This document shows, piece after piece, positions 26,031 to 43,128 of a stretch of DNA of 64,000 nucleotides. Within the stretch, counting starts at the first letter, position 1, and each line of letters begins with the position of its first letter. The notes under the pieces are model-generated. The model was not told the origin of the DNA and searched no databases. It saw nothing but the letters and a program-made list of their open reading frames with translations. A program made the translations under genes and the position numbers. Source of the stretch: Chitinophagales bacterium (lineage in GTDB: Bacteria; Bacteroidota; Bacteroidia; Chitinophagales; Saprospiraceae); contig JAAFJY010000004.1 of NCBI GenBank assembly GCA_013299105.1, positions 1 to 64,000 on the forward strand, in the 5' to 3' direction.

Positions 26031-26162
26031 CACTTTCAGCAGCCAATAAATTTTATTGCCCGCTGGAAGTGTGTTTTTTGGGATAGATTCAGCAGCCAAT
26101 AAATTTTATTCTTCGCTGGAAGTGCTTATTTTTGTACGAATCCAGCAAGTAATAAAGTCATG
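26031..26162. promoter_or_regulatory. tandem palindrome array, 53-bp period, before the first DUF234 ATPase
   Basis: The unit begins cagcagccaataaattttat and is palindromic (cacttYcagc...gctggaagtg in the first copy, 26031-26071). Units start at 26037, 26090 and 26143, exactly 53 bases apart. The third is a half-site (cagcaagtaataaa) that runs up to the start codon at 26160. Probably an operator array or a mobile-element footprint. Confidence 0.75.
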
Positions 26163-27602
26163 GCCAAAAAAAATACCCAGCTGTTTATCGGTAGGAAAGA
26201 GGAGCAAAAAATCCTACGAGAAGCTTTGCAATCAAATGAGGCTGAGATGATTGCAGTAATCGGGCGCAGGCGGGTCGGCAAGACCTTTCTGGTCAAAACC
26301 GTTTACGAAAAAGAAATGGCATTCGACCTGATTGGCATTCAGGATAGTGAACTGGCAGTGCAACTGGAACGTTTTCGGGATCGCTTAATGGAATATACCC
26401 AAAGCCGGATTATGCTTCCTGCACCAAAGGATTGGTTTGAAGCCTTCAATTGGCTGAAATCCTACCTCGAAACCCTGCCAAAGGAGCAAAAGCAGGTGGT
26501 TTTTTTTGACGAACTGCCTTGGCTGGCTACCCACAAGTCCAATTTTTTACAAGCCTTCGGCTATTTTTGGAACAGTTGGGCCTGGCAACAAAATTTGGTG
26601 GTGGTCATCTGCGGCTCGGCAGCTTCCTGGATGATCCAAAAGGTGGTGAACGATACGGGAGGCTTGCACAACCGCATCACACGGCGGATTTTTTTGCAAG
26701 CTTTTACCCTCGGCGAAACGGAGGAATACCTATTGGCTCGTGGCTTCAAATTCAAGCGCTACCAAATTGCTCAATTGTACATGGCAATGGGCGGTATTCC
26801 ACATTACCTCAAAGAGATCAAGCCTGGCATCAGCGCCATTCAAAACATCAACAACATTTGCTTCTTACCGAATGGATTGCTGCACGATGAGTTTTTGCGC
26901 TTGTATCCTTCTTTGTTTCCCAATGCGGATCGACATTTTGCTATCATTCGGACCCTGGCCCAAAAACAAAGTGGCCTGGCCCGTCAAGAACTGGTGACTC
27001 AAACTAAAATCAGCGATGGTGGGGGCTTGACTTCGGTCTTGGATGAACTGAGTTATTCGGGGTTTATCACACAGTACAGCAATTTTGGACGCAGTACCAA
27101 GGATAAAATTTATCGTCTTACAGATGAATACTCCATGTTTTACCTGAAATTCATCGAAAAAAATAACCTTGAAGACGAGGACGCTTGGCAACACCTGAGC
27201 CAAACGCAAACCTACAAAACCTGGAGTGGATATGCTTTCGAGAACCTTTGCTTGAAACATATTGGCATGATCAAAAAAGCCATGAGTATTGCAGGCATTT
27301 ATGCACAATCTTCAACTTTTTACAAAAAAGGTGATGCAGAGGATAGCGGTATTCAAATTGACCTTCTGCTTGATCGGAAGGACCAAGTGATCAACCTGTT
27401 TGAGATCAAATTTTACAACAAAACTTATTCCCTGGACAAAGAACACGCTGAACAATTACAAAAGAAAATGTGGCGTTTTGAGGAGCTGACCCAAACCCAA
27501 AAGCAAGTTTTCTGGGTGTTTATCTCCACTTTTGGCCTCAATCCCAACGAGCACAGCCTGGATTTGGTGAGCCAATCTTTGACTTTGGATGATTTGTTTT
27601 GA
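26160..27602 (+). CDS. AAA ATPase of the ATPase_2/DUF234 family, copy 1
   Basis: 480 residues. Walker A GRRRVGKT lies at 35-42, Walker B VVFFDELPWL at about 113-122, and the sensor-type VVICGSAASWM follows. The middle holds a winged-helix-like region (SGLARQELVTQTKISDGGGLTSVLDELSYSGFI). The C-terminus has a PD-(D/E)XK-like core of the DUF234 type: GIQIDLLLDRKDQVINLFEIKFYN. A close paralogue lies at 41665-43128. Both have palindrome arrays upstream and stand alone. These proteins are widespread in Bacteroidota and archaea; the function is not established. Confidence 0.9.
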   Translation: MAKKNTQLFIGRKEEQKILREALQSNEAEMIAVIGRRRVGKTFLVKTVYEKEMAFDLIGIQDSELAVQLERFRDRLMEYTQSRIMLPAPKDWFEAFNWLKSYLETLPKEQKQVVFFDELPWLATHKSNFLQAFGYFWNSWAWQQNLVVVICGSAASWMIQKVVNDTGGLHNRITRRIFLQAFTLGETEEYLLARGFKFKRYQIAQLYMAMGGIPHYLKEIKPGISAIQNINNICFLPNGLLHDEFLRLYPSLFPNADRHFAIIRTLAQKQSGLARQELVTQTKISDGGGLTSVLDELSYSGFITQYSNFGRSTKDKIYRLTDEYSMFYLKFIEKNNLEDEDAWQHLSQTQTYKTWSGYAFENLCLKHIGMIKKAMSIAGIYAQSSTFYKKGDAEDSGIQIDLLLDRKDQVINLFEIKFYNKTYSLDKEHAEQLQKKMWRFEELTQTQKQVFWVFISTFGLNPNEHSLDLVSQSLTLDDLF

Positions 27603-27673
27603 GCTGATTTTTTGCGTTCAACACAGGACTAAGAAGGTCTGACTGAAAAAGGTAGGCTGAAGCAAGGAAACGC

Positions 27674-28000
27674 TCACCCCCCAGTATAAGCTGAAGCAAA
27701 CCGATACATGGCCTCAATTAAAGGCAGGGCGAGCAATCCTTTTTCCGTGATGGCATAGTCCACTCTAGGTGGAACTTCGCCGTGATTGGTGCGGGTCACC
27801 AACCCATTTTCCATCAAGCTTTTCAACTCCTGGATCAGCATTTTTTCTGAAACATCGGGGATGTTTCGCTTCAATTCAGACAAACGCAACGGTGATTTTG
27901 ACAATTGGAACAAGATCAACAATCGCCATTTTCCACCCAACATTTCTAAAGTGGTTCGAATGGGGCAACGGGCACTAAGGTTAATGACTTGCTCATTCAT
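27674..28000 (-). CDS. HxlR-family transcriptional regulator
   Basis: 108 residues, a winged helix-turn-helix of the HxlR/MarR-like class. The family signature is clear: CPIRTTLEMLGGKWRLLILFQLSKSPLRLSELKR, with the N-terminal Cys used for redox or aldehyde sensing in characterised members, then LIQELKSLMENGLVTR and PPRVDYAITEKG. It is divergent from an oxidoreductase gene with 76 bases between them, the usual arrangement in which the regulator controls its neighbour and itself. Confidence 0.92.
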   Translation of the reverse strand: MNEQVINLSARCPIRTTLEMLGGKWRLLILFQLSKSPLRLSELKRNIPDVSEKMLIQELKSLMENGLVTRTNHGEVPPRVDYAITEKGLLALPLIEAMYRFASAYTGG

Positions 28001-28076
28001 ACTAACAAAAAGGTAAGTACGGTAATTTTTTTCAGTATGTAAAAGTAAGCTGATTTTTGTTCAAAATATAGCTGTC
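28001..28076. promoter_or_regulatory. divergent promoter region between hxlR-type gene and oxidoreductase
   Basis: 76 bases. ggtaagtacgg and tgtaaaagtaagc look like two related direct half-sites (GTAAGTA-like) placed near the middle. They are possible HxlR binding sites. No clear -33/-7 pair is seen. Confidence 0.3.
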
Positions 28077-28712
28077 ATGAAAAGAATTGCACTTTTTGGT
28101 GCCTCCGGCAAAACTGGCCAACAGTTTCTGGACCAAGCCATCGCCAAGGGGTACCATGTAAAAGCCTTGGTGCGCACGCCCGAAAAAATTACCCTACAAA
28201 GTGACCAACTGTCCGTCATCAAAGGCGATGTGCTCGACCCCGATGCAGTTGCAAAAACCATTGCCGATACAGACCTGGTGGTGAGTTTGTTTGGTCATGT
28301 CAAAGGTTCGCCCGAATGGTTGCAGACCAATGGCACCCAAAATATTGTGGCCGCCATGAAAGCCCGGGGGCTAAAAAGGGTTATTTCGCTTTCTGGCGGC
28401 GGCTTGCCTTTTCCAGCTTACGACCAACCCAAGTTTGCGGATAAAATGATCCGTACGATCATGAAAATAGTAGTCCCAAAAGTGCTGAACGACGCCATTG
28501 CGCACGCAGAAGTTTTGCAAAAAAGTGGATTGTCTTGGACCATTGTCCGTGGGCCCCGCCTGTTGGATGGGGACAAACGAGGCCAATACCGTGTGGGGTG
28601 GGTTGGTGTAAATGCCAGTACCAGCATCAATCGGGCCGATTTGGCTGATTTTATCCTTCGCCTAGTGGAAGACGAAAGCTTCGACCAACTCATGCCTTTC
28701 GTGAGTTATTGA
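28077..28712 (+). CDS. NAD(P)-binding oxidoreductase (NmrA/SDR-like)
   Basis: 211 residues. The N-terminal Rossmann motif KRIALFGASGKTGQQFLDQA has the GxxGxxG spacing, and KALVRTPEKI supplies the basic residues that favour NADP. Later, RVISLSGGGLPFPA and LSWTIVRGPRLLDG match the atypical SDR family that includes NmrA- and BVR-B-like proteins. The substrate is unknown. It is probably induced through the divergent HxlR regulator by an electrophile or oxidant; that is inference. Confidence 0.85.
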   Translation: MKRIALFGASGKTGQQFLDQAIAKGYHVKALVRTPEKITLQSDQLSVIKGDVLDPDAVAKTIADTDLVVSLFGHVKGSPEWLQTNGTQNIVAAMKARGLKRVISLSGGGLPFPAYDQPKFADKMIRTIMKIVVPKVLNDAIAHAEVLQKSGLSWTIVRGPRLLDGDKRGQYRVGWVGVNASTSINRADLADFILRLVEDESFDQLMPFVSY

Positions 28713-28810
28713 AGAAAATTAAAGGTTGAAACAGCAAGCCTCACACCCTTTCTACTACTCAAATTGAAGTAGAGGAAATGGATACTGCCAAATCCAAATA
28801 ACTGCAATAA

Positions 28811-28851
28811 AAAACCGGGACCCAAACGCTCGCGTTTGGACCCCGGTTTTT
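28811..28851. terminator. bidirectional terminator between oxidoreductase and sucB
   Basis: aaaaccgggacccaaacg pairs with cgtttggaccccggtttt around a four-base loop. The A-run and T-run at its ends serve both strands of this convergent pair. Confidence 0.85.
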
Positions 28852-28872
28852 ATGATTTTGCTCGAATACCAA

Positions 28873-30120
28873 TCAAATATCCAACAACAAAGTAATTGGA
28901 TCCTCCAGCAATTCCTTCACTTTCACCAGGAAAGTCACCGAAGAGCTGCCGTCGATCACGCGGTGGTCGTAGCTGAGGGCCAGGTACATCATCGGGCGGA
29001 TTTCGATCTTATCGCCTACAGCAACCGGGCGGTTTTTGATCGCGTGCATGCCCAGGATGGCTGACTGCGGCTCATTGATGATCGGGGTGCTGACCAGTGA
29101 ACCGAATACCCCGCCGTTGGTGATGGTGAAAGTACCACCGCTCATCTCTTCGAGGGTCAAAGTGTTGTTGCGGGCCTTGCCAGCCAATTCTTTGAGTTTG
29201 TTTTCGATTTCAGCATAGTGCAGCGATTCCACGTTGCGGATCGGGGGCACTACCAAACCATTGGGGGTAGAAATGGCGATCGAAATGTCCACGAAGTTGT
29301 GGTAAAGCAAGTCTTCGCCGTCGATTTGGGCATTCACCTCAGGCATGGCCAGCAGTACCTTGGCGCAAGCCTTGGCAAACAGTGACATGAAACCCAATTT
29401 GATGCCGTACTTGGCTACAAATTTCTCTTGGTATTTTTCGCGCAGGGCCATCAGTTCGCTCAGGTCCACCTCGTTGAAGGTGGTCAGCATTGCGGTTTCG
29501 TTTTTGGCACTCACCAGGCGCTTGGCGATGGTGCGGCGCATGCGGCTCATTTTCTTGCGCTCCACTTCCCGCGAGAAGCTGGCTGGGTCACTGAAGCTAA
29601 CGGTTGGCGCAGTGGCTGGCGCGGCGGGACTTGCAGGCGCGGCGGGTGCAGCAGCTTTGGTGTCAACGGCCTTTTGGGCATCGTCTTTGGTGATGCGGCC
29701 ATCGCGGCCAGTGCCTTGTACCTGGGCAGCAGGAACTGCATTTTCCTGCAAAATCTTAGCCGCAGAGGGCGAAGGGTGGCCAGTAGCGTAATTGCTGGTC
29801 GCAGGGGCAGGAGCAGCTGGGGCAGTTTCGGTTTTGGGAGCGGCAGGTGCAGCTGGCGCGGCGGATGCTTCGCCTACACTCACACTGGTATCAATTCGGG
29901 CAACCAGGGCACCAATTTCCAAGTCATCGCCTTCTTTGGCCACGTGGATCAACTTGCCCGTAGCTTCCGCCGGGAATTCCAGGGTGGCCTTGTCTGATTC
30001 AAATTCACAAATTGGTTCATCGAGTTTGATGATGGCACCGTCGGGCTTCAACCAACGCGACAAGGTTACTTCATTGATGGACTCGCCCACGGTGGGCACC
30101 CGCATTTCAACTATGCTCAT
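28873..30120 (-). CDS. sucB: 2-oxoglutarate dehydrogenase E2, dihydrolipoyl succinyltransferase
   Basis: 415 residues. The lipoyl domain covers 1-80 with the lipoylated Lys44 in [10 protein letters not shown]; the opening [16 protein letters not shown] is typical of the 2-oxoglutarate type. An Ala/Pro-rich linker leads to a short E1/E3-binding domain ([14 protein letters not shown]...[12 protein letters not shown]). The catalytic domain ends with [14 protein letters not shown], whose His and Asp are catalytic. It transfers succinyl groups to CoA in the TCA cycle. The E1 gene sucA, often adjacent, is not in the window. A distinct branched-chain E2 is less likely given the N-terminus. Confidence 0.92.
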
Positions 30121-30405
30121 AATGCTTTTTGGACTTCTGTGGCTAAATGGCTCTTTGACAAGAACCTGAACTGGAAAAAAGACCAGTTGCGGCGTAAAAA
30201 TCTGGCAAATGTGTTAAAGAAACAACTAATCGCTGATTTAATTGCAATTGCGCTTGAAGTTTTCGTCAAAATGCTAACCTCCATAGACAGTACTTGGTTC
30301 TTAGAAATGTAGGATTTTAGCATTTTTTATTGAAAACAAGCCTGCTGAGGTCAATTTTTTGTGCAAAAGCCAGCTTTTCTCTACCTTTCACCAAAACCAA
30401 AATCC

Positions 30406-32142
30406 ATGCGCGTAGCACTACTTCTCTGTACATTCTTGTTTTGCAACTTGGGCTTATCGGCCCAAGGCGGCCCCGCTAAACCCGCCGCAAAAGCTTATTT
30501 CAACGTCACTTTTCCCGCCAGTAAAGGAGCCCAGTTCGACGGGCGCTTGCTTTTGCTGATGGCTAAAAACGACAAAAGTGAACCCCGTTTCCAAATCGCC
30601 GACGGTCCGACCTCACAATTAGTCTTTGGCCTGGATGTGAATGCCTGGAAGGCAGAGCAAGTCAAAACTTTTACCTCCAGTGAGTTTGGCTACCCCATCG
30701 AAGGGTTGAGTCAAGTGCCTGCGGGTACTTATTTCGTCCAGGTTTTGCTGGACAAGTACGAAACTTTTAAACGCAGCGATGGCAAAACGGTCAAACTGCC
30801 CACCGACCGTGGAGAAGGCCGCCAGTGGAACCTCGCGCCGGGCAACCTGATGTCAAAACCCGTGAAAATCACTTTCGACCCCAAGGCCGCCAAGCCAATC
30901 AGCCTGGTGATGGACCAGGAAATTCCGGCCATTCCTGAACCAAAAGATACCAAGTACGTCAAGCACATCAAAATCCGCAGCGAGCGCTTGTCCAAATTTT
31001 GGGGCCGCGACATGTACCTGGGCGCTCACATCCTCTTGCCCGAAGGCTTTGATGAACACCCAGAGGCGCGTTATCCCTTGGCGGTGTATCATGGCCATTT
31101 TCCCAGCGATTTTGGCGGTTTTCGCACCACCCCTCCCGATCCGAATTTGAAATGCGAGTACAGCGATCGCTTCAAGTTGGATTGCTACAACCGCATCCAG
31201 CAACAAGAGGCTTATGATTTTTACAAGATGTGGACCGGACCGAATTTTCCTCGCATGCTTGTCATCGAAATTCAGCACGCCAACCCATATTATGACGATT
31301 CCTACGCCGTGAACTCCCAAAACTTGGGCCCCTATGGCGATGCGATCACCTACGAGCTCATTCCAAACATCGAAAAACAGTTCCGAGGCATCGGCCAAGG
31401 CTGGGCGCGTTTCATGTACGGCGGCTCCACAGGCGGTTGGGAAGCCCTGGCTGCACAGGTGTTTTACCCCACTGAGTACAATGGTTGTTATGCCGCCTGC
31501 CCAGATCCAATCGACTTCCGAGCTTATACGGTAGTGGATTTGTACAAGGACAAAAACGCCTATTGGCTGGAAAGCGATTTCAAAAAAACACCCCGCCCTG
31601 GCCACCGCGATTACTTGGGTCATGTATCGGCTACCCTGCGCGAAATGAACCTGAAAGAACTGGCCCTCGGCACCAAAAGTCGCTCCGGCCAGCAGTTCGA
31701 CATCTGGGAGGCTGTGTATTCTCCGGTTGGCGAGGATGGCTACCCCAAGCCAATTTGGGACAAATACACGGGCGAAATTGACCACAAAGTAGCCGAGTAC
31801 TGGAAAGAAAACTACGACTTGGCTTACATCCTCAAGCGCGATTGGGCCAAACTGGGCCCCCAATTGCGAGGAAAAATCAAAATCTACTGCGGTGACATGG
31901 ACAACTTTTACCTCAACAACGCCGTGTACCTGATGGAGGATTTTCTGAAACAAACTACCAACCCTCATTACGATGGCGAAGTTGATTATGGCGACCGCGC
32001 CGAGCATTGCTGGAACGGCGACCATACCCAACCCAACGCCATTTCGCGCTTGCGCTATCACCGCATGTTCATTCCCAAGTGGACCGAAGAAGTGCAAAAA
32101 AGGGCTCCAGCTGGGGCAGATTTGAAATCTTGGAGATATTGA
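30406..32142 (+). CDS. secreted esterase-like alpha/beta-hydrolase protein
   Basis: About 578 residues from the ATG at 30406; a GTG at 30361 opens the frame earlier but precedes the signal peptide (MRVALLLCTFLFCNLGLSAQ) by 15 residues. An N-terminal beta-rich domain of about 200 residues is followed by an esterase-D-like alpha/beta-hydrolase region: YPLAVYHGHF, MLVIEIQHANPYYDDSYAVNS, and the nucleophile elbow FMYGGSTGGWEALA. The histidine may be in DYGDRAEHCWNGDH near the end. The substrate is unknown; the protein is probably periplasmic. Divergent from sucB; a terminator follows. Confidence 0.8.
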   Translation: MRVALLLCTFLFCNLGLSAQGGPAKPAAKAYFNVTFPASKGAQFDGRLLLLMAKNDKSEPRFQIADGPTSQLVFGLDVNAWKAEQVKTFTSSEFGYPIEGLSQVPAGTYFVQVLLDKYETFKRSDGKTVKLPTDRGEGRQWNLAPGNLMSKPVKITFDPKAAKPISLVMDQEIPAIPEPKDTKYVKHIKIRSERLSKFWGRDMYLGAHILLPEGFDEHPEARYPLAVYHGHFPSDFGGFRTTPPDPNLKCEYSDRFKLDCYNRIQQQEAYDFYKMWTGPNFPRMLVIEIQHANPYYDDSYAVNSQNLGPYGDAITYELIPNIEKQFRGIGQGWARFMYGGSTGGWEALAAQVFYPTEYNGCYAACPDPIDFRAYTVVDLYKDKNAYWLESDFKKTPRPGHRDYLGHVSATLREMNLKELALGTKSRSGQQFDIWEAVYSPVGEDGYPKPIWDKYTGEIDHKVAEYWKENYDLAYILKRDWAKLGPQLRGKIKIYCGDMDNFYLNNAVYLMEDFLKQTTNPHYDGEVDYGDRAEHCWNGDHTQPNAISRLRYHRMFIPKWTEEVQKRAPAGADLKSWRY

Positions 32143-32190
32143 GTTGAGACTTGGGGTTGAGACTTGGGGTTGAGAATTTGAGGAGTTTAG
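32139..32190 (-). repeat. TTGAG-type tandem repeat
   Basis: gagttgagacttggggttga occurs as repeated 14-base units (gagacttggggttg) directly after the esterase stop codon. Confidence 0.7.
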
Positions 32191-32196
32191 TGGAAG

Positions 32197-32234
32197 AGCG
32201 TGTTCTTGGAATAATCCGAGAACACGCTTTTTTA
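32197..32234 (+). terminator. intrinsic terminator after the esterase-like gene
   Basis: agcgtgttcttgg and its complement ccgagaacacgct form a hairpin followed by six T. Confidence 0.85.
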
Positions 32235-32345
32235 TCGGTAATTGGTCTAATTTGGTCCGATATATTTCTGCCCTGAACGTAAAAACTGGACAAAGCCTAA
32301 TTTTAATGTACACCTTACCTCAATCTAACCCTTAAAACAGCGACC

Positions 32346-33278
32346 ATGCTCATTCAATTTTTAACTTTTGCCATTGCCCTTGCCATCCTTTTGTTTTCGG
32401 CAAAAATTTTCACCAATGCTGCTGAAAAAATTGGCGCTTTTTTCAAACTCCCCAGCTTTGTGATTGGCATCTTCATTGTGGGGATCGGTACTTCATTGCC
32501 CGAATTGGTGTCGGGCTCTTTGTCGGTAATGCGGCAACATTCAGAAATTGCGATCGGCAACATCATTGGAGCCAATGTTTCCAACCTTTTATTGGTTACA
32601 GGCCTTGGTATTGCCCTCCACCGCAGGACCATCGTGTTAGGTAGTAACTACATTTTCATCGACTTGCATTACCTGGTCGGCAGTTTTGTGGTCTTTGGCA
32701 TCATGGCTTATGATGGTCGCATTGATTTTGGAGAGGCTTTCATGGGCTTGGTCATTTTCACAATTTATACGGTTTATTTGCTTAAGTCCGATCCGGGCGA
32801 AGACGCTGCTGTTGAGTCTACACGCAAGGCAAAGTTTCCCTGGCTAGCGGGTTTGCTGCTTTTGGGGGCCACCGTAGGGATTTATTTTGGGGCGGAATAC
32901 ACCATTCAATCGCTGAGTAAAATTGCCAAAAGCCTGGGGGTTCCTAGTTCGATCATCGCCTTGACTTTGTTGTCTTTGGGCACTACTTTACCTGAACTTT
33001 CGGTCAATTTGCGCTGCATCAGCCAGGGCAAAGCCGAAATGGCGCTTGGCAATGTTCTGGGCTCTTGTGTGTTCAATTGTCTTGTGATCCCTGGCATTGC
33101 TACTATGTTTGGGCCAATTCTGGTGCCTACTAATATCCTCTATTTTTCCTTGCCGCTGATGCTGGTTTTTGGCCTCTTGTTTTACCTGCTTACCCAGGAT
33201 AAGCGCATGTCTCCGTGGGAAGGGGCTTTGTTTGTTTGTTTGTACGTGTTTTTTGTGGTCAAAACGGTGCAGGTGTGA
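32346..33278 (+). CDS. Na+/Ca2+-type cation antiporter (CaCA, YrbG-like)
   Basis: 310 residues with about ten membrane helices. The two inverted alpha-repeats that form the ion site are plain: GIGTSLPELVSGSLSV in the first half and SLGTTLPELSVNLRC in the second, each with the Glu of the GTSxPE motif. It exchanges sodium or protons for calcium across the inner membrane. Other cation:cation exchange is possible. It stands alone; the following 1 kb is non-coding. Confidence 0.92.
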   Translation: MLIQFLTFAIALAILLFSAKIFTNAAEKIGAFFKLPSFVIGIFIVGIGTSLPELVSGSLSVMRQHSEIAIGNIIGANVSNLLLVTGLGIALHRRTIVLGSNYIFIDLHYLVGSFVVFGIMAYDGRIDFGEAFMGLVIFTIYTVYLLKSDPGEDAAVESTRKAKFPWLAGLLLLGATVGIYFGAEYTIQSLSKIAKSLGVPSSIIALTLLSLGTTLPELSVNLRCISQGKAEMALGNVLGSCVFNCLVIPGIATMFGPILVPTNILYFSLPLMLVFGLLFYLLTQDKRMSPWEGALFVCLYVFFVVKTVQV

Positions 33279-33385
33279 TGTAATTGTTAATTGTTAATGG
33301 TTAGTTGTTAGCGGGCGGCTGGATCAAAAGAGCGGGGATTTTTAAAGGGGGAATGTAAACTTTCGCCTAAAATTCTGCCCTGTAA

Positions 33386-34310: not shown

Positions 34311-35966
34311 ATGAGAAAATTATCCTTCTTGATCTCCATGATATTGGGCGTTACTGCTTTAAGTGCGCAGGTCATGTACCATGCTTGCAAACAAGACAAC
34401 TTTGCTTGCACTGAAGAAAATGCAGCGGTGAGCGTAGAGCGTTTCAGGTTCAGCCCCTCGGTAGTCAGGCACAACGCGACGGGTACAGTATTGTTGGAAG
34501 CAACTATCGTTGGCACGCCTTCGCGGGTAGTGCTCAATGTCAATGGCACTTTGTATGATTTCATAGACAATGGCATGAGCGGCGACCGTGTAGCGGGCGA
34601 CAACATCTATTCGTATCGCTTTCCTGCACCAGGCATTGTAGCTTTGCTCAAGCCTAGCGACGGCTACAAGCCTTTTCTGGGGTTCTTGGAATTGTACGAA
34701 GGAGGCACCAAAACGGGACAAGCCAATATCGTGGCCCAAGTGCGCACCGCCGACATGCCCGATGTGAGCAAAACCACTTTTGCCACAGGGGTACAAGCCA
34801 CCGATGTAGTGGTCAATATTGTGGCTAAAAACGACAAAAACATCGACTACCAAGCTGTCGCCAAGCGGTTTTACCAATATTATGACGACCGCTATGATTT
34901 CCTCAATTTCGTACATGTGCCGGGCTACCTTGGCAATCGTTTTCATGCACCCCTCAAGAACACGGTTCGGGGTATCGGCATGGGGCAAAGTGACAACGTC
35001 AGTCTTTATGGCAGCCGCGGACAACTCCGGGGCATCAATGCTTTTCCTCTCACCAGTTTTTACGATCCGATTAACATTGGTTTTGTGCATGAGTTTGGCC
35101 ACCAGTGGATCAATTTCGCCGATGGTACTCCTTTGGATCTGGGTATTCCACATTGGCCTTATGCCAACATTGGCTATGGGGTAATGGGCATTTCGATCGG
35201 TGGCCGCAATGGAGCCGGGGGTAATTTTGCGCGCATCATGAAAAAAGGCACAGGTGGTTACGATGTCAGCAATGCACCAGTGGGTTCGGTCCCGGTTTTC
35301 AATAACTGGGAACTGTATTTTATGGGGTTACTGGCCAAAAAGGACGTTACGGAAAATGCCGTTATTTTCAAGGACCAAGGCGTATTTCCCTCCAAACCTT
35401 TTTACCCCGACGCCGAATTGACCCAATATTCGATCGACCAATTGGTGACCAAATTCGGCGAACGCCAACCCAATGCCAGCGTGAGCCAAAAGAAATTCAA
35501 GGTAGCAACGATTTTGGTCTCTGATACCTTACTCAATAACGACGAGCTGGCATATTACCACTTCATCACCTTGCGAGCCGATGCCCGCAGCCCACAAGCT
35601 GTGAGAGAGGGACTGGTCACCTATCAAGGCAATTCTTTCTTTGTGGCCACCGGCGGTCGGGGCAGTTTGGACGTAATCTTGAACTCACCAGTGGTCAGCA
35701 CCAGGGACGTACGGCAGGGCTTGGAGGTACAGGCTTATCCCAATCCTATCCAACAAGAGTTGAACTTGAAATTTTTATTGCCCGAAAAAGACCTCTTGCA
35801 GGCCGAAATTCTCGACTTGCTAGGCCGCCGGGTTTGGCTGGCAAAATATACCCTAGGCCCTGGGGAAAACAACCTCAACTTGAACCTGGGTGACCTTCCC
35901 CCTGGGCCATATTATTTGCATTTGGCTGGCGAAAAATACAAGGCAGGATTGCGTTTGGTAAAGTGA
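34311..35966 (+). CDS. T9SS-secreted zinc-metalloprotease-like protein
   Basis: 551 residues from the ATG at 34311. The signal peptide ISMILGVTALSAQ precedes a beta domain that resembles a choice-of-anchor or Ig fold (30-150). The central domain contains FVHEFGHQW, an HExxH zincin motif with a likely zinc ligand further on, and a Gly-rich region (GYGVMGISIGGRNGAGG). The last 75 residues (AYPNPIQQELNLKF, LPPGPYYLHLAGEKYKAG) are a type A T9SS sorting domain. It is probably a surface or released peptidase; the exact family is not recognised. Convergent with the Ig-repeat gene with a ten-base gap. Both lie inside a repeat-flanked module. Confidence 0.8.
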   Translation: MRKLSFLISMILGVTALSAQVMYHACKQDNFACTEENAAVSVERFRFSPSVVRHNATGTVLLEATIVGTPSRVVLNVNGTLYDFIDNGMSGDRVAGDNIYSYRFPAPGIVALLKPSDGYKPFLGFLELYEGGTKTGQANIVAQVRTADMPDVSKTTFATGVQATDVVVNIVAKNDKNIDYQAVAKRFYQYYDDRYDFLNFVHVPGYLGNRFHAPLKNTVRGIGMGQSDNVSLYGSRGQLRGINAFPLTSFYDPINIGFVHEFGHQWINFADGTPLDLGIPHWPYANIGYGVMGISIGGRNGAGGNFARIMKKGTGGYDVSNAPVGSVPVFNNWELYFMGLLAKKDVTENAVIFKDQGVFPSKPFYPDAELTQYSIDQLVTKFGERQPNASVSQKKFKVATILVSDTLLNNDELAYYHFITLRADARSPQAVREGLVTYQGNSFFVATGGRGSLDVILNSPVVSTRDVRQGLEVQAYPNPIQQELNLKFLLPEKDLLQAEILDLLGRRVWLAKYTLGPGENNLNLNLGDLPPGPYYLHLAGEKYKAGLRLVK

Positions 35967-35976
35967 GCAGCGGTTT

Positions 35977-37644
35977 TTAGCGCCTAATCAAGGTAAACGC
36001 TGCGCCATCTCGGCCCCGAACCAAGTAAGACCCCGACCGCAAATTGGCGAGGTTAATTTGTGGGGTTGCCAAGTATTCCGCTACCAACATACCCGCCAGG
36101 TTGAAGACTTGCAAGCGTTCGCCCGCTTTCCAGCCCTCCAGGAAAAGTACTTCTGCGCAGGGGTTAGGGAAGGCTTTGATGCGTTTCAATTGCAGCTCAT
36201 TCACGGGCGTGCTTTGCAACACTGTCACTTTACGGATGGCAGATACTTGCTGGTCGCCTAGGTCGTCCCACACCCGAATACTGAGGTTTTGCACACCGAT
36301 GGGCAAGTTATTGAGCTGGATAAGGTAAGGGGCCTGGGTGTCTTCACCTACTTTTTGGCCGTTGAGCAGCAATTCTACTTTTTCAATTTCGCCATCGGCA
36401 TCGCTGGCATTGATGCGAATGCTGAGGGCGGTATTGGCTTTGATGCTGGTGTCCTTGCTGGGATTGATGATCAAAGCTTGTGGCAAGGCATTGACCACCA
36501 GGCTCACGGGGGTAGCGTTGGTCGTAAACCCACGATTGTCAGTAGCGCGGGCGGCAAAAATATAAGGTCCAGACTTCAGCGCCGGGGTTTTGAGTGAAAA
36601 AGGAGCACCCAATACTTCTCCGAACTTTTCTCCGTTTTGAAAAAACTCCACTTTGGCGATGCCTCCATCAGGGTCGCTGGCATTCACGCTCAGGGTCAGG
36701 GTTTCTCCAGGTTGGGCTTTGGTGTTGTTATTAGGGCTGCTAAAGGAAATGATCGGCGGGGCATTGACGATGAAATTCAAAGGGCTGCTGTTGATGGCAC
36801 CCCCGGTATTATCAGTAGCGCGGGCTACCAGGTTGAAAGTGCCGAACTCGAAAGCTTGGTGGTCGTAGGTGTAAGGTGAACTTAGGTCTTCGCTCACTTT
36901 GATGCCATTGATGATGAATTCTACCTTAGCAATGTTTCCATCAGGATCGCTGGCGGTAGCCGTAAAGCCCATTTCAGCCCCAATCGCATGGACTGAAGCG
37001 TTGGCTACTCCGGCGACACTCACTACTGGCAATGCATTGACCACAATTGCCACTGGGGTAGATGAAGAATTTGCATTGCGGTTGTCAGTAGCGCGGGCGG
37101 CAAACAAGTAAAGCCCTGGTGTCAGGCCACTCACCGGTAGGTTGAAAGGTGCTTGGCCATCTTCGCCGATTTTGAAACCATTTTGCAAAAACTCTACCTT
37201 GCTGACGCTGCCGTCGGTGTCGAGGGCTTGGGCTTGTAGCACGATGTTGGCGCTGCCCTGGTAAACGGCATTGTTGGTTGGCGAAATAAGGCTCACTTGC
37301 GGTGGGGCATTCACAATGATGGTGATAGGGCCCGAAATGGTGCTTTGGTTGGCCTGATTCACAGCCCTGGCGGTGAATACATAAGTGCCTGGTGCCAAAA
37401 AGTCAATTACAAAAGAGTAGGGGGCATCACTGATTTCACCAATGCGTTGGGCATCCTGAAAAAATTCTACTTTGCTGATGGGTGAAGCCGGATCAGCAAC
37501 CGTAGTGGTGATGGTGATGCGCTCATTGAGTTGAAAAACTGCATTGTTGGCTGGTGCACTGATGCTGATGCTGGGTGCTGCATACAACAAATGAACCATA
37601 AAAAGGCCCAAAGTGACCAGGAATAGGGGACGGATCTGCTTCAT
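35977..37644 (-). CDS. T9SS-secreted multi-Ig-repeat protein
   Basis: 555 residues from the ATG at 37644. A longer frame reaches 37722, but its first 26 codons are translated repeat DNA. After the signal peptide (MKQIRPLFLVTLGLFMVHLLYA) come five tandem Ig-like domains of about 92 residues, each of the form P...ISxPxNNA...SDPDGxIxKVEFxxNGxKxGE...APY. They match the bacterial Ig-like Big_7 type. The C-terminal 75 residues (AFPNPCAEVLFLEG, LRSGSYLVRGRDG) are a T9SS sorting domain. It is probably an adhesin or a stalk for binding glycans. Expressed separately from the protease gene, which it faces. Confidence 0.85.
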   Translation of the reverse strand: MKQIRPLFLVTLGLFMVHLLYAAPSISISAPANNAVFQLNERITITTTVADPASPISKVEFFQDAQRIGEISDAPYSFVIDFLAPGTYVFTARAVNQANQSTISGPITIIVNAPPQVSLISPTNNAVYQGSANIVLQAQALDTDGSVSKVEFLQNGFKIGEDGQAPFNLPVSGLTPGLYLFAARATDNRNANSSSTPVAIVVNALPVVSVAGVANASVHAIGAEMGFTATASDPDGNIAKVEFIINGIKVSEDLSSPYTYDHQAFEFGTFNLVARATDNTGGAINSSPLNFIVNAPPIISFSSPNNNTKAQPGETLTLSVNASDPDGGIAKVEFFQNGEKFGEVLGAPFSLKTPALKSGPYIFAARATDNRGFTTNATPVSLVVNALPQALIINPSKDTSIKANTALSIRINASDADGEIEKVELLLNGQKVGEDTQAPYLIQLNNLPIGVQNLSIRVWDDLGDQQVSAIRKVTVLQSTPVNELQLKRIKAFPNPCAEVLFLEGWKAGERLQVFNLAGMLVAEYLATPQINLANLRSGSYLVRGRDGAAFTLIRR

Positions 37645-37681
37645 GACTATTTGTTTTCGGTTTTTGGTAAATACAGTGGGA

Positions 37682-37721
37682 AAAAGTTGAAATATTTGTG
37701 GTTGAAATGTTGAAAAGAACA
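37682..37721 (-). repeat. dispersed TTGAA-type repeat
   Basis: aaaagttgaaatatttgtgg and ttgaaatgttgaaaagaac just upstream of the Ig-repeat gene. It supplies the spurious N-terminal extension of that frame. Confidence 0.75.
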
Positions 37722-37976
37722 TTCAACCCAAGAACAAGATCCAGGCAAATAATGATATTGATGGCATTTACTTTCAGGCCAATGCCTAATTCTTTGAGGA
37801 GATGATGATTGTTAGTAACGGAGAATCGAGCCGCAAATGGCCTTTTGAAAATGCAAGAACACTATTTTTTGCCAAAAAATAAAGCGGGAATGTAAACTTT
37901 TCGCATAAATGTCATTTGAATGTCACAGTAAAAGCCCGTAAGTGGCACAAAATCAAGGGCAATTGCGGGAGATTTT

Positions 37977-38161
37977 GGTTCTTTGACAAATAGTGTGGAA
38001 GGGCATATTTTTCAAATCTCGTCCATATGCTCGTGTTATTGGCTCCATCTCGTGCAGGCCACGAGTTTTAGATGGATGCATCTACTGACTGCATGAAACC
38101 AGCGCATTAATCATCATAAGTGTTAAGCAGAATACTTGTCCACATGATTTGTCAAAGAACC
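37977..38161. mobile_element. MITE-like element with 22-bp terminal inverted repeats
   Basis: 185 bases. ggttctttgacaaatagtgt at the left end and its complement (agtgtgg versus catgtgg at the inner edge) at the right end agree at 20 of 22 positions. No coding capacity and no clear target duplication. It lies inside the right flank of the T9SS module. Confidence 0.65.
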
Positions 38162-38488
38162 AAGAATTTTAAAGAATTAGTCAACATCACGCAAGAAATT
38201 CTGTAATTCTGTAATCCTGAAAATTCTGGTTCATTAACGGTTCAAAAATAAACCTTACCAATTTTTTAATTGCCAGTTGTCAACATCATGGTCAACGTCA
38301 TGCCGGAAATCCGTGTAAATCCGTGTAAATCCGCGTAATCCGTGTCATCCGTGTTCCAAAAATGGCCTCGCGCAGCGAAGCAACGAAGTTGCGATTTGGT
38401 AAGGTTTATTCGTGGCTCGTCACTTAGACAAAACACCTCGCTTGATTGTTGAGGTCGCCTTTCTCCGAAGTTTTAAGAACCCATTCTT

Positions 38489-38518
38489 TTGGCATCATAA
38501 ACGGAATGTCTATTTTAC
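38489..38518 (+). promoter_or_regulatory. possible promoter of the MFS transporter gene
   Basis: TTG at 38489-38491 and TATTTTAC at 38511-38518 with 19 bases between. The start codon is 28 bases downstream. Only TAnnTT of the -7 box is conserved. Confidence 0.35.
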
Positions 38519-38545
38519 CGGAGCAAACAAAAAACAAGCAATTTA

Positions 38546-40096
38546 ATGGACACAACAAACACCGGAACCGAGCAAAAAACGGGGCGTAGGCTGATGCAAG
38601 TCATCTTCGCCAGCTCCCTTGGTACGCTAATCGAGTGGTACGATTTTTACATTTACGGGGCTTTGGCACCAATCATCGCCAAGCAATTTTTCCCTTCTGA
38701 AAATCCCACGGCAGCTTTTCTGGCAGCTTTGGCCACTTTTGCGGCGGGATTCATCGTGCGGCCTTTTGGAGCCTTGGTTTTTGGGCGCTTGGGCGACTTG
38801 GTGGGCCGCAAGTACACTTTTCTGGTGACTTTGTTGTTGATGGGCTTTTCGACTTTTGCCATTGGTTTTGTGCCGGGTTATGCCACCATTGGGGCGGCTG
38901 CACCTTTCATCATATTGGCTTTGCGCTTCATCCAGGGTTTGGCGTTGGGTGGCGAATACGGAGGAGCCGCAACATATGTAGCCGAGCATGCGCCAAAGGA
39001 GCGACGCGGCTATTTTACCTCCTTTATCCAAACCACCGCCACCTTGGGGCTGCTGCTTTCGCTCAGCGTGATTTTGTTGACCAAAAAACTGGCTGGCGAT
39101 GTGGCCTTCAACGATTGGGCTTGGCGGGTGCCGTTTTGGGCCTCTTTTATCATGGTTTTGGTGTCGGTTTATATTCGCTTGCGCATGTCCGAGTCGCCAG
39201 TTTTTGCCAAAATCAAAAAAGAAGGCAAGGTTTCGAGCAATCCGCTCAAAGAATCTTTTTCCAAAAAAGCCAACCTCAAAATGGTCTTGCTGGCCTTGTT
39301 TGGCGCTGTGATGGGCCAAGGGGTGGTGTGGTACACGGGGCAATTTTACGCCCAAACCTTCATCGAGCGCACTTGTGGGGTGGAGTTTGAACAAACCCGC
39401 TACCTGATGTTGGGGGCCATTGTTTTGGCGACTGGGTTCTTTGTTTTCTTCGGCTGGTTGTCGGACCGGGTAGGGCGCAAGTGGATCATGCTGGCAGGTA
39501 TGCTTTTGGCTTTGTTGACTTATCGACCCATTTACCGCAGCATTTACAGCGCGGCAACTGACCAAAGCAGCAGCCTGGTGGTAGCCAGAAGTGGTAGTTC
39601 GACCAAGGTCAGTGTGGCTTCCAATGGTGATTCGACCATCATCCAAAAAAGTGTGCAAGCCTTTGAAGGCGGAAATACTTACCAAACGGTGGTGACAAAG
39701 ACGGTCAAAGCCCAGTCAAGTGCCCCCTCCAAAATAGAGACCGTAAAGACCGTTTGGCTCTCCAAGGGGCATTTTTGGACCATTTTGTTCCTGGTTTTCA
39801 TCCAAATCCTGTACGTGACGATGGTTTATGGCCCGATAGCGGCATTTTTGGTGGAATTGTTTCCTACCCGGATTCGCTATACCTCCATGTCCCTGCCCTA
39901 TCACATCGGCAATGGCATTTTCGGTGGTTTGACTCCCTTGATTGCCACCCGCTTGTTTGACTTATCCAAGACGAGTACCCAGCCTGCTGGAGATCCTTTT
40001 GTGGGATTGTGGTACCCAATTGTGATTGCTGCGGTTTGTTTTGTGATCGGGCTGCTGTTTTTGCCCAGCAAAATCGATGAGCAAGTGGATGATTGA
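38546..40096 (+). CDS. MFS transporter, metabolite:H+ symporter type, with a hydrophilic insert
   Basis: 516 residues, about twelve membrane helices. SLGTLIEWYDFYIYGALAP at the N-terminus, FGRLGDLVGRKYTF in the loop after helix 2 and GWLSDRVGRKW in the loop after helix 8 are hallmarks of the metabolite:H+ symporter (ProP/ShiA) group. It imports an organic acid, osmolyte or similar solute with protons; the substrate is unknown. Between helices 9 and 10 there is a polar insert of about 70 residues (SIYSAATDQSSSLVVARSG ... KAQSSAPSKIETVKT) that the family usually lacks. A small membrane protein gene overlaps its stop codon by one base. Confidence 0.88.
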   Translation: MDTTNTGTEQKTGRRLMQVIFASSLGTLIEWYDFYIYGALAPIIAKQFFPSENPTAAFLAALATFAAGFIVRPFGALVFGRLGDLVGRKYTFLVTLLLMGFSTFAIGFVPGYATIGAAAPFIILALRFIQGLALGGEYGGAATYVAEHAPKERRGYFTSFIQTTATLGLLLSLSVILLTKKLAGDVAFNDWAWRVPFWASFIMVLVSVYIRLRMSESPVFAKIKKEGKVSSNPLKESFSKKANLKMVLLALFGAVMGQGVVWYTGQFYAQTFIERTCGVEFEQTRYLMLGAIVLATGFFVFFGWLSDRVGRKWIMLAGMLLALLTYRPIYRSIYSAATDQSSSLVVARSGSSTKVSVASNGDSTIIQKSVQAFEGGNTYQTVVTKTVKAQSSAPSKIETVKTVWLSKGHFWTILFLVFIQILYVTMVYGPIAAFLVELFPTRIRYTSMSLPYHIGNGIFGGLTPLIATRLFDLSKTSTQPAGDPFVGLWYPIVIAAVCFVIGLLFLPSKIDEQVDD

Positions 40097-40401
40097 TGGC
40101 TGCTTCTGGTTATGCAGTTATCCTTATTAATGCTGAATTAGACAAAGACTTCCTAATTCAGCTAAAAAAATCAGATATGGAAAATATCAAACGCTTTTCG
40201 GGCATCATTTGGATAGGCAGTGCTTTGCTGGCCATGTACCTGCTCTTAGCCCAGGCTGCGCACGAATTTGCGCAGTCACCCACACTCGATACCCGGATTT
40301 TTTGGTTCACGATCATTCCGGTGTTTTTGCCCATTGCCTTGGGCTTGTTGTTGTTTGGTTGGTATTGCTTGAAGGGGGAGTACGAGGGGGAACAGGGATG
40401 A
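40096..40401 (+). CDS. small two-helix membrane protein coupled to the MFS gene
   Basis: 101 residues from the ATG at 40096, whose first base is the last base of the preceding TGA. An ATG at 40177 would give a 74-residue version starting MENIKRF, which looks equally natural before the first helix. Two hydrophobic helices (GIIWIGSALLAMYLLLAQAA and FTIIPVFLPIALGLLLFGWY) and an acidic tail EYEGEQG. Unknown function; the coupling suggests a subunit or stabiliser for the transporter. Confidence 0.65.
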   Translation: MAASGYAVILINAELDKDFLIQLKKSDMENIKRFSGIIWIGSALLAMYLLLAQAAHEFAQSPTLDTRIFWFTIIPVFLPIALGLLLFGWYCLKGEYEGEQG

Positions 40402-40491
40402 GTTTGGGTATCGGGCTTGAAATGCTTTTTGTCTGAATCCATGCAAGCCTGTAACAGCTTCAGAAACCTCAAAAGCCAGCTTTGACCCAAT

Positions 40492-40547
40492 CTTCAACAT
40501 TTCAACTCTTCAACATTTCAACTCTTCAACATTTCAACCCCTCAACT
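40492..40547 (+). repeat. dispersed TTGAA-type repeat
   Basis: Three successive ttcaacatttcaac words ending at the stop codon of the TraB/GumN gene. Confidence 0.8.
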
Positions 40548-41427
40548 ACCTCACCGCCGTCAATCGATACCCCTCTTTTTGCAGCAGCTTCAACACCCCC
40601 TTGTCGCCAGCCAAATGGCCTGCACCTACGGCAAAAAAAGTTGGTTTGGCCTTGGCAGAAGCAATCATGGGGGCAACCCAATTGGCGTTGCGCTGATTGA
40701 GCAGGGTAGTGCTGAAATCCACGCCACCTGACTCTTGCTCAATGTACTTGAGCAAGCCGTTCAGGTCTTGGGCTTTGTAGAGGTCCACCATTTTTAGGAA
40801 CAAAGCCTTTTGTGATTCCATGTCTTTGAGGTGCTCGGCTAAGTAAGTAGCTTGCTTGGTGTAAGGGATGCTGCTCATGGCCTTGGTCTGGTCCTCCACC
40901 GATTCCAGGCCCTTGATTTCTTTGCTGGCTCCTTGGGCCATTTGCACCAATGACAGCTCGTAAGAAGCAGGTTGTTCACCCAGGAATTCTTTGAGGATCA
41001 GCGAATACACCAACATGGGTTGCCACTTGTTGAAGGCCGCGATGCCTACGCCCACTGATTTTTTGCACAAGTCATCCAATTTTTGGTAATCCGCTGGGCT
41101 CAAGAGTTTGTCCAGGGTACTGCCATCGCTCATCGTGGCGAATTTGAGCAATTGCATCGACATTTGCGGGTCGTCCATGTCCAGTTCCAGCACCACTTGT
41201 TCGCTTTGTTCAAAAGCGTTTTTCATGGCATCGCTGAAGAAATAGTCCTTTTGTGGCAGCATGTGGATGGTGCCCAGTACATACGAAGGCTTGCTGAGGC
41301 CCTTGCCTTCAATTTTCCAGAGCAGGGAATCTTGGGTAGAGCCAAGGGACTTGTTGGTGGTTTTGCAGGCGAAAAAAGCAATGGCCAGCAAAAGGGCACT
41401 CAGTAAGTAGGTTGTTTTGTTGCGCAT
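40546..41427 (-). CDS. TraB/GumN-family lipoprotein
   Basis: 293 residues from the ATG at 41427; nine extra residues are possible upstream. A lipoprotein signal ends LLLAIAFFAC. The TraB/GumN (Tiki-like) family is shown by SYVLGTIHMLPQKD near the N-terminus, the VVLELDMDDP motif, and FFAVGAGHLAGDKGVLKLL at the C-terminus, which together supply the conserved His and Glu residues of a metal-dependent peptidase-like fold. It is probably attached to the outer face of a membrane. Substrate unknown. Monocistronic. Confidence 0.9.
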   Translation of the reverse strand: MRNKTTYLLSALLLAIAFFACKTTNKSLGSTQDSLLWKIEGKGLSKPSYVLGTIHMLPQKDYFFSDAMKNAFEQSEQVVLELDMDDPQMSMQLLKFATMSDGSTLDKLLSPADYQKLDDLCKKSVGVGIAAFNKWQPMLVYSLILKEFLGEQPASYELSLVQMAQGASKEIKGLESVEDQTKAMSSIPYTKQATYLAEHLKDMESQKALFLKMVDLYKAQDLNGLLKYIEQESGGVDFSTTLLNQRNANWVAPMIASAKAKPTFFAVGAGHLAGDKGVLKLLQKEGYRLTAVR

Positions 41428-41555
41428 GGTTCTTGCGTTTGTGGTTCGGTTCAATGAGTTGCAAGGGCTGGTTGAAAATTACAAAATCGGCTGAAAATGC
41501 CTTATCCGCCAGAAAAATAGCCTGCAATTGGGCTGAAAAGGCTTTGAAAATCAAG

Positions 41556-41646
41556 ATTCCGCCCGTTTAGAATGGACCATAATGGGCGGAATGTGGTCGA
41601 AAAAGTGAGATTCCGCCCATTATGACTTGTAGATAATGGGCGGAAT
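41556..41646. promoter_or_regulatory. tandem palindrome array, 54-bp period, before the second DUF234 ATPase
   Basis: attccgcccgttta...taatgggcggaat (41556-41592) and attccgcccattat...taatgggcggaat (41610-41646) are two palindromes starting 54 bases apart. The start codon at 41665 follows by 19 bases. The layout matches the 53-bp array before the paralogue at 26160, but the sequence is unrelated. Confidence 0.75.
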
Positions 41647-41664
41647 GTGTATTTTTGAGCTTCA

Positions 41665-43128
41665 ATGAACCAACGCAAACCTAATCAAATGCTGCAAAAA
41701 CTAGTAGGACGCCAGGCGGAACAAGAAGTGCTGCGCAAAGCTTACCAATCCTTCGACGCGGAGTTGGTAGCTGTCTTTGGTCGCAGAAGGGTGGGGAAGA
41801 CCTTTCTCATCAGGTCGGTTTTTGCTGGTAAAATCGAACTTGAACTAAACGGTGCCCAAAATGGGACCACCGCCAGTCAATTGCAACATTTTACCAGTCG
41901 ACTGAACTACCACGCACGTCCGATCCTGCCGTATGTGAGTCCTAAAAACTGGCAGGAGGCTTTTCAAATGTTGATCATTTACCTGGAATCTTTGCAGCGC
42001 AGCGAAAAAATGGTCATTTTCTTGGATGAGTTCCCCTGGCTAGCGGGCAAAAAATCTGACTTTTTGCAGGCTTTTGGCCTGTTTTGGAATACCTGGGCCT
42101 CGCAAAACAACGTAATGGTGATTATTTGTGGTTCGGCGGCTTCCTGGATAATCAATAAAGTCATCAGGGATCGAGGTGGCTTGCACAATCGCATTACCCG
42201 CAGGATTCAATTGCAGCCTTTTAATTTGCATGAAACCGAGGCCTTCTTACAGAGCCGTGGAGTGAAATTGAATCGCTACCATATACTACAGTTGTACATG
42301 GCAATGGGTGGCATCCCCCATTACCTCAAAGAAGTAGAAGCTGGTAAAACCGCTACGCAAAACATCGACCAGGTCTGTTTTTCTAAGCAAGGGCTTTTGC
42401 GCGAAGAGTTTAATGAATTGTACCCAGCTTTGTTCAGCAATGCAGAAAACCATATCCAAGTCATCCGTGCATTGGCCAACACTCGGCAAGGCTTGACGCG
42501 TGGCGAGCTGGTGAAAATTGCCGAACTGGCTGATGGGGGCAATACTACCCGCACCTTGGAGGAGTTGGAGTACTCGGGGTTCGTAAGTACCTATTATGCT
42601 TTTGGCAAAAAGAAAAAAGAGCTGCGCTACCGCCTGAGCGACGAGTATTCACTTTTTTACCTACAATTTATTGCTGAAAAAAGAGCCGAAGGAACTGGAA
42701 CTTGGGAAAAAGTGGCCCAAACCCCAGTTTGGAAAAGCTGGAGTGGCTATGCATTTGAGAGTATTTGCCTCAAACATGTGCCAGCCATCAAAAAAGCTCT
42801 GGGAATTGCTGGAATATATACCGAGGCTTCAACTTTTTACCTGAAGAACAGTGATTTTGGTCGTGGGGTGCAAATTGACTTGTTAATTGATCGCAACGAT
42901 CATGCGATCAACCTTTTTGAAATTAAATTTTACCAGGATCGTTTTGCGTTGAGCAAAGAGCAGGCTGAAGAAATTCAGCTAAAAAAAGCCATTTTTAAAT
43001 CCAGTACCAACAGCAACAAGCAAGTGTTCGTAACTTTGTTGAGCAGTTTTGCCTTGAGCCCCAACGAAAATAGCCTCGGTGCCCTGGATAATTTCTTGGA
43101 CATGAATTGCTTGTTTGAGCCGTTTTGA
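41665..43128 (+). CDS. AAA ATPase of the ATPase_2/DUF234 family, copy 2
   Basis: 487 residues, collinear with 26160-27602. Walker A VFGRRRVGKT, Walker B VIFLDEFPWLAGKKSDF, the VMVIICGSAASWI strand, a winged-helix-like region (RQGLTRGELVKIAELADGG) and the C-terminal PD-(D/E)XK-like core VQIDLLIDRNDHAINLFEIKFYQD are all present. The same likely biochemistry applies. The pullulanase frame begins inside its last codons, but the true pullulanase start is later. Confidence 0.9.
   Translation: MNQRKPNQMLQKLVGRQAEQEVLRKAYQSFDAELVAVFGRRRVGKTFLIRSVFAGKIELELNGAQNGTTASQLQHFTSRLNYHARPILPYVSPKNWQEAFQMLIIYLESLQRSEKMVIFLDEFPWLAGKKSDFLQAFGLFWNTWASQNNVMVIICGSAASWIINKVIRDRGGLHNRITRRIQLQPFNLHETEAFLQSRGVKLNRYHILQLYMAMGGIPHYLKEVEAGKTATQNIDQVCFSKQGLLREEFNELYPALFSNAENHIQVIRALANTRQGLTRGELVKIAELADGGNTTRTLEELEYSGFVSTYYAFGKKKKELRYRLSDEYSLFYLQFIAEKRAEGTGTWEKVAQTPVWKSWSGYAFESICLKHVPAIKKALGIAGIYTEASTFYLKNSDFGRGVQIDLLIDRNDHAINLFEIKFYQDRFALSKEQAEEIQLKKAIFKSSTNSNKQVFVTLLSSFALSPNENSLGALDNFLDMNCLFEPF

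Follow-up and report, generated by a model that had tools for sequence, protein, structure and literature searches.

Promoter arrays and a residue-to-base code point to private operators in a family of putative STAND-like ATPase-nucleases

The window analyzed here is a stretch of 64,000 nucleotides from a Chitinophagales bacterium (Saprospiraceae; assembly GCA_013299105.1, contig JAAFJY010000004.1, positions 1-64,000, forward strand). Two of its genes, at 26160 and 41665, encode ATPases matching the PADLOC profile PDC-S27, and each is preceded by a tandem array of palindromes. That each protein binds the array in its own promoter is strongly supported by computation, namely, by the arrays, by their geometry and by a code in which a few residues of the winged helix predict bases of the half-site. 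The system as a whole is probably a STAND-like, autoregulated ATPase-nuclease with a private operator.

Upstream of the 26160 gene, palindromic units start at 26037, 26090 and 26143, a period of 53 bp, and the third unit is a half-site that stops 3 nt short of the ATG. Upstream of the 41665 gene, palindromes start at 41556 and 41610, a period of 54 bp. These coordinates and spacings, given in a preliminary description of the DNA, were confirmed. Five half-sites are found in the 26160 array and four clear ones in the 41665 array. The 41665 ATG sits just 7 nt past a TATTTTTG box, and a second ATG, at 41689, is likelier to be the start, judging by its better fit to the start of the family. The arrays were compared with chance in the 180 bp upstream of each gene, using 500 dinucleotide shuffles. 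The tandem-repeat score (the best 36-nt self-match at a shift of 45-64) is 33/36 for 26160 and 28/36 for 41665, the shuffle maximum being 22 for both. Four inverted 10-mers with at most one mismatch are present in the 41665 array, a number reached in 0 of the 500 shuffles. With at most two mismatches the counts are six for 41665 (0/500 shuffles) and five for 26160 (5/500).

Such arrays are common in the family. The test counted non-overlapping copies of a 10-mer (at most one mismatch, both orientations present) in the 180 bp before the start. The sample was 161 distinct genes with an N-terminus, 160 of them with at least 150 bp upstream; near-identical genes are included, so the counts are not independent. 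At least three copies are present in 122 of the 160 genes, as against 9 of 320 shuffles and 19 of 576 control windows from the same loci, and at least four in 79 of the 160, as against 0/320 and 2/576. Homologs generally lacking arrays, a possibility raised in the preliminary description, is thus not what is seen. Orientation alternates in 325 of 351 adjacent half-site pairs, and in 193 of 229 cases sites of the same orientation follow each other at 51-54 bp, close to five turns of the helix. The TATTTTTG box we take to be a Bacteroidetes-type -7 element, with the consensus TAnnTTTG. This consensus is present within 100 nt of the start on the gene strand in 100/160 genes versus 28/160 on the opposite strand. 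Among 79 genes with both box and array, the box lies inside the array in 59 and downstream of the last site in 18.

A gapless alignment of 122 half-site profiles, made from DNA only, gives a shared scaffold, TTATAnnTnGCnnAAwsT, whose inner bases vary between paralogs. Its score is 574, compared with a mean of 134 and a maximum of 147 in 20 column-permuted controls. The two window motifs had been described as unrelated, which is partly right; however, TTATTGCCCGCTGGAAGTG and TCATAATGGGCGGAATCTG, placed in one register, are variants of this one scaffold. A genome-wide search found no second cluster of either motif, and the palindromes are not, as had been envisaged as a possibility, widespread away from their genes. 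The 41665 motif has six hits, four of them in its own array, and the degenerate 26160 motif has 22, five of them in its own array; all others are single. For the two 41665-motif hits that stand alone as exact matches (L273 and L274), the surrounding 400 nt contain no partner half-site, and they are taken as chance.

The preliminary description supposed that each ATPase recognizes its own palindrome through its winged helix and proposed a check for covariation between the two. This was run on 102 genes (score at least 3, more than 440 aa; effective number 82) from the 122 that were aligned to the scaffold. Mutual information peaks in the winged-helix block, residues 281-300, with a mean Z of 1.69 (other blocks, 0.38-1.0). 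Residue 282 shares 1.14 bits with base 12, where permutation gives a mean of 0.15, and the further leading pairs are 282-13, 285-8, 285-9, 288-9, and 310-14. Very high Z values at residues 371 and 68 come from near-invariant columns and amount to about 0.1 bit. Alignment numbers plus 8 give those of the 41665 protein, so that 282, 285, 288 and 310 are D290, N293, R296 and K318. In a structural model of that protein, residue 290 lies ahead of the recognition helix as a cap, the opening turns of the helix contain 293 and 296, and the wing contains 318; these are the places at which winged helices commonly contact DNA.

The residue-base tables read as a code. Serine at 282 goes with C12 in 29/30 genes and threonine in 9/9; asparagine goes with T12 in 20/23, aspartate with G13 in 18/19 and glutamate with G12 in 9/12. 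R288 is accompanied by G9 (27/31) and T285 by A9 (16/21). At residue 310, lysine is paired with A14 (56/61) and arginine with T14 (21/24).

The code also predicts sites of genes outside the set from which it was derived. From 32 genes fetched, three were already in training; of the 29 new ones 20 had at least three sites and 17 could be aligned. Base 12 was predicted correctly in 14/17 (baseline 4), base 13 in 13/17 (baseline 9), base 8 in 13/17 (baseline 10), base 9 from residue 288 in 11/17 (baseline 7) and base 14 in 17/17 (baseline 14). The held-out likelihood was matched by 0 to 2 of 2000 permutations, and for the 13 genes less than 70% identical to training 0 to 20 permutations reached the observed value. 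When 59 disjoint closest pairs were compared, residue 282 came out top of 385 columns for bases 12 and 13, and residue 285 for bases 8 and 9.

The code was further used to rank arrays within genomes, with training genes of less than 70% identity. The window genome has about 22 paralogs, rather than the two that had been described, and 15 of them are alignable. Own arrays ranked first for 10/15 paralogs there, and for 8/14, 7/13 and 6/7 in three other genomes. Mean ranks were 1.8, 1.5, 1.7 and 1.3, versus 8, 7.5, 7 and 4 expected, and 0, 0, 0 and 1 of 5000 shuffled pairings reached the own-array total. Covariation, held-out prediction and ranking all support the supposition that the winged helix recognizes its own palindrome. 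Together with the arrays they would qualify the proteins as DNA-binding regulators whose own-promoter sites are read by their own domain, as far as computation can tell. Identity at the six code bases occurs in 2/317 within-genome and 35/2168 between-genome pairs, and the means per identity band are nearly equal. Selection for distinct codes inside one genome was considered, and no claim is made for it, the two kinds of pairs being not measurably different.

Both window proteins match the PDC-S27 profile nearly end to end, with E-values of 1.5e-193 and 2.2e-188 over profile positions 4-473 and 2-473 of 474. The DUF234 label of the preliminary description did not hold for them: Pfam (E ≤ 0.001) gives ATPase_2 (PF01637) for both and calls DUF234 in neither, and DUF234 was dropped as a name for the family. 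The DUF234 cut-off is reached at two other places in the genome. Walker A (GRRRxGKT), the Walker B residues D121 and E122, and D405, E419 and K421 are invariant in 73/73 aligned relatives. Full-length profile matches and the active-site motifs of both the ATPase and the PD-(D/E)XK part indicate membership in PDC-S27, the nuclease being assigned from its motif, and, given the conserved catalytic motifs, the product should be an enzyme as well. An AlphaFold2 model of the 41665 protein (predicted local distance difference test 93.6, predicted template modeling score 0.92) has the winged helix at 260-324, with the recognition helix at 292-303 and wing strands at 307-312 and 320-324. The best fold matches are the archaeal ATPases PABY2304 (2qen; Z 20.0, root-mean-square deviation 3.3, 306 residues) and SSO1545 (2fna; Z 19.7, deviation 3.2, 299 residues). 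Plant NLRs, CED-4, Dark and origin-recognition proteins follow; for the archaeal ATPases, plant NLRs, CED-4 and Dark, Z is about 14-20 over residues of about 8-340. These alignments span the ATPase and winged helix, the C-terminal part with the nuclease motif being outside the aligned range. By these matches the protein has the domain order of STAND ATPases, the winged helix coming after the nucleotide-binding domain. Coordinates of the features are collected in Table 1.

Table 1. Half-sites, promoter-like boxes and genes at the two loci (positions in the window)
Feature	Coordinates	Strand
Half-site 1, 26160 array	26031..26050	-
Half-site 2, 26160 array	26052..26071	+
Half-site 3, 26160 array	26086..26103	-
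Half-site 4, 26160 array	26105..26124	+
TATTTTTG, promoter -7-like box, between half-sites 4 and 5 of 26160 array	26127..26134	+
Half-site 5, 26160 array, 3 nt upstream of ATG	26140..26156	-
ATPase_2 / PDC-S27 gene, 480 aa	26160..27602	+
Half-site 1, 41665 array	41554..41571	-
Half-site 2, 41665 array	41578..41595	+
Half-site 3, 41665 array	41607..41624	-
Half-site 4, 41665 array	41633..41649	+
TATTTTTG, promoter -7-like box, abuts half-site 4 of 41665 array	41650..41657	+
ATPase_2 / PDC-S27 gene, 487 aa; 479 aa from likelier start 41689	41665..43128	+
Winged-helix coding part (residues 260-324), 41665 gene	42442..42636	+
PD-(D/E)XK-type motif coding part (residues 405-421: D405, E419, K421), 41665 gene	42877..42927	+

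The mechanism that we propose is as follows. A protein of the 41665 type would consist of a STAND/Orc1-like ATPase (about 8-240), the winged helix (260-324) and, toward the C terminus, a nuclease motif of the PD-(D/E)XK type. Its operator would typically comprise three to six inverted half-sites over the promoter, with the orientation switching at intervals of about 26 bp (one palindrome per 51-54 bp). The winged helix would read the half-sites through a few residues, so that each paralog would bind its own array and, for the most part, leave those of the other paralogs alone. Physical binding, presumably by oligomers, would alter transcription, as the overlap with the promoter suggests. Since the promoter-like box often lies in or directly beside the array, the effect is most likely repression of the gene by its own product. 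Autorepression would hold down the level of a nuclease that may be harmful, and the protein might sit on its array until released to act by some trigger, possibly a phage. A nuclease held until triggered would fit the listing of the family among defense candidates, its anti-phage role being that of a candidate. Neighboring open reading frames (at least 80 aa, within 1500 nt, 161 genes) do not recur: the largest shared family is common to 8 of the 161 loci, the next to 4. The toxin-antitoxin-like idea put forward earlier hence fails as a two-gene module, there being no conserved partner next door, and was discarded; the autoregulation that formed part of that guess may well apply. Because there is neither a second cluster of the two window motifs nor a recurrent neighbor, the arrays are most simply explained as serving a single gene that regulates itself.

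Several observations weigh against this account. Many concern the 26160 gene. In the ranking, where the 41665 gene came first, it is the sole paralog of 15 whose own array falls outside the top two (rank 9), and its base 14 is G, whereas K310 goes with A in 56/61 genes. Its three inverted 10-mers with at most one mismatch are reached in 12/500 shuffles; as a tandem repeat the array is clearly not chance, but by inverted sites alone it is moderately unusual only. Outside the array, its motif turns up singly at 17 places in the genome, versus a total of five hits for the reversed control pattern, and further lone sites of this type may exist. Across the family, fewer than three sites are found in 38/160 genes and in 9/29 new genes, the exact TAnnTTTG box is missing in 60/160, and the half-site before the box points toward it in 47/67 genes only, and activation instead of repression may be the outcome of binding. 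As to the code, residue 57, outside the winged helix, has some signal with base 12 (0.60 vs 0.20 bits), and held-out prediction of base 9 from residue 285 is weak (9/17, baseline 7). In the disjoint pairs, unrelated columns are close behind 282 and 285, residue 310 is seventh for base 14, and residue 288 is weaker (p 0.013). The six residue-base pairs were picked on the 102-gene set, which shares many of the ranked genes. Because of this overlap the ranking is not independent, and the held-out genes, n=17, are the sole fully independent test of the code.

The window genome contains 21 near full-length family matches and one further gene in two pieces (L024/L025). One of the 21, L005, has an early in-frame stop, yet its long palindromes are kept. 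Four congeneric genomes have 6, 10, 13 and 22 matches, and of 41 genomes of the taxonomic family 17 have matches and 24 do not. Among the best 80 of 563 loci in the genome scan, titles are mostly Bacteroidota, with few others. In a copy from Wolbachia phage WO (L369:2409-2507), right behind head genes, two 38-nt repeats with inverted arms lie 56 bp apart directly before the gene; this array escaped the 10-mer test. A copy on a Butyrivibrio plasmid has a perfect 15-nt inverted pair. By the 10-mer test, the Malaciobacter and Rhodothermus copies have three sites and the Desulfosarcina copy two; no sites were found by it in one fusobacterial and two distant haloarchaeal copies. The Rhodothermus copy (L372 and L187, probably the same plasmid) has a different motif, ATTATACTC/GAGTATAAT, at the start codon, and it follows the type III-A CRISPR gene csm5 at a distance of about 1.4 kb (L372:1-90). 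A word resembling ATTATACTC/GAGTATAAT is found upstream in two viral contigs (L357 and L358). In the related PDC-S01 ATPases (30 loci, L211-L240, of which three were too short and 27 were tested), at least three inverted 10-mers are present upstream in 8/27 loci (e.g., L226, L225 and L218), and in L226 AAATAAGTGA alternates at 16-bp intervals. Possibly these arrays follow the same principle with another spacing.

The arrays could instead be the ends or recognition sites of a mobile unit made up of array and reading frame, bound for moving or copying, promoter overlap being secondary. We regard this as distinctly unlikely. Among 13 pairs with at least 92% protein identity, seven share upstream flanks and six do not. 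In the latter six, homology has a sharp left border at -187 to -100, at or close to where the array ends on its outer side; in L048/L056 (93% DNA identity) and L061/L074 (95%) the border is sharp at that edge. The five of these pairs with complete ends lose homology -7 to +17 nt from the stop, and such borders would suit a unit that moves. The patchy distribution, with fragments, and the copy behind phage WO head genes also agree with movement. However, L035/L058 and L055/L070 share upstream flanks, yet their homology ends near the stop (-6 and +1), so a border at the stop codon is not by itself a sign of movement. In addition, L033/L036 is probably a single locus that differs by a local indel, neither target duplications nor empty sites turned up (the latter sought with the L033 and L048 flanks), and the promoter elements fit regulation. 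At L339:3139-3413 (G003) lies a remnant of the L048/L056 type, in which the middle of the gene is gone and the array runs directly into roughly its final 128 nt. A separate repeat occurs in flanks of L017, L016, L019 and L020 of the window genome (aligned pieces of 157-321 nt, 76-89% identity). In the four congeneric genomes, relatives of the TraB-like neighbor of the window copies are located elsewhere, with neither pullulanase nor ATPase beside them in the stretches examined. A reading that joins spreading to regulation, which we hold to be unlikely, is that array and reading frame form a 1.6-kb selfish or defense unit spreading between genomes, the private operator defining an immunity group in which a resident silences newcomers of the same specificity. 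If so, only copies with a new recognition-helix code would establish, which would explain how one chromosome comes to carry more than 20 differently coded units. Phage immunity groups and plasmid incompatibility groups would be the analogy, except that here a single ATPase-nuclease gene would be the carrier.

Two other possibilities were considered. It is quite improbable that the array is chiefly a loading or parking platform, on which the ATPase oligomerizes and holds the nuclease off or switches it on, with minor effects on transcription. The fixed geometry of several half-sites, the ring-forming STAND and Orc1/Cdc6 fold relatives and the conservation of ATPase and nuclease motifs would suit a platform. 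However, a platform does not require a promoter position, and the position of the box in or just downstream of the arrays is then unaccounted for. That the palindromes act as RNA hairpins in a leader is hardly credible: the arms could pair in RNA and some last half-sites extend to the start codon, but transcription from the promoter-like box would miss most of the array, which is upstream of it, and the covariation of individual bases with the winged helix speaks for DNA. An autoregulated ATPase-nuclease with a private operator thus is the reading that we favor.

A readable code would tell which DNA each copy binds. It would also give an operator-reporter assay, making specificity swaps a direct test. 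On these results, a winged helix of the STAND type appears to read DNA sequence, and a single genome would hold many natural pairs of repressor and operator, a set of possible interest to synthetic biology. In the open-license literature, no paper was found on operator arrays of the PDC-S27-type family.

How do these genes compare with known systems? In RAYT/REP elements, a gene has its own palindromes beside it. The present genes are likewise preceded by their own palindromes; unlike in RAYT/REP, the two tested motifs have no second genomic cluster, and REP-like dispersal was rejected for them. In phage repressor immunity groups, one protein fold serves many private operators, as appears to be the case here. 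Unlike those groups, the present system is a single gene with ATPase and nuclease motifs, and same-genome pairs are not measurably more distinct. With 2qen/2fna, the STAND/NLR ATPases and Orc1/Cdc6 the family shares the fold of ATPase and winged helix; identity to 2qen/2fna is 17%, and their entry titles are silent on self-operators. PDC-S27 itself, to which the match is near full-length, is described as an ATPase fused to PD-(D/E)XK and as a single-gene phage-defense candidate, validation pending for most such candidates (PMC12988326). It is widespread, the survey counting 3503 archaeal and 4562 bacterial systems; the account of prevalence and origin given there mentions no operator array, recognition code or mechanism of this kind (PMC12988326). 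A parallel in control is RptR, the autorepressor of a phage defense island, by which defense genes are repressed through repeated palindromes over the -10 box and which controls its own promoter (PMC12255303). RptR is described as a stand-alone repressor of 9 kDa whose conserved 6-bp motif is arranged as direct repeats (PMC12255303), whereas in the present family the effector itself has the reader domain and the motif varies by paralog.

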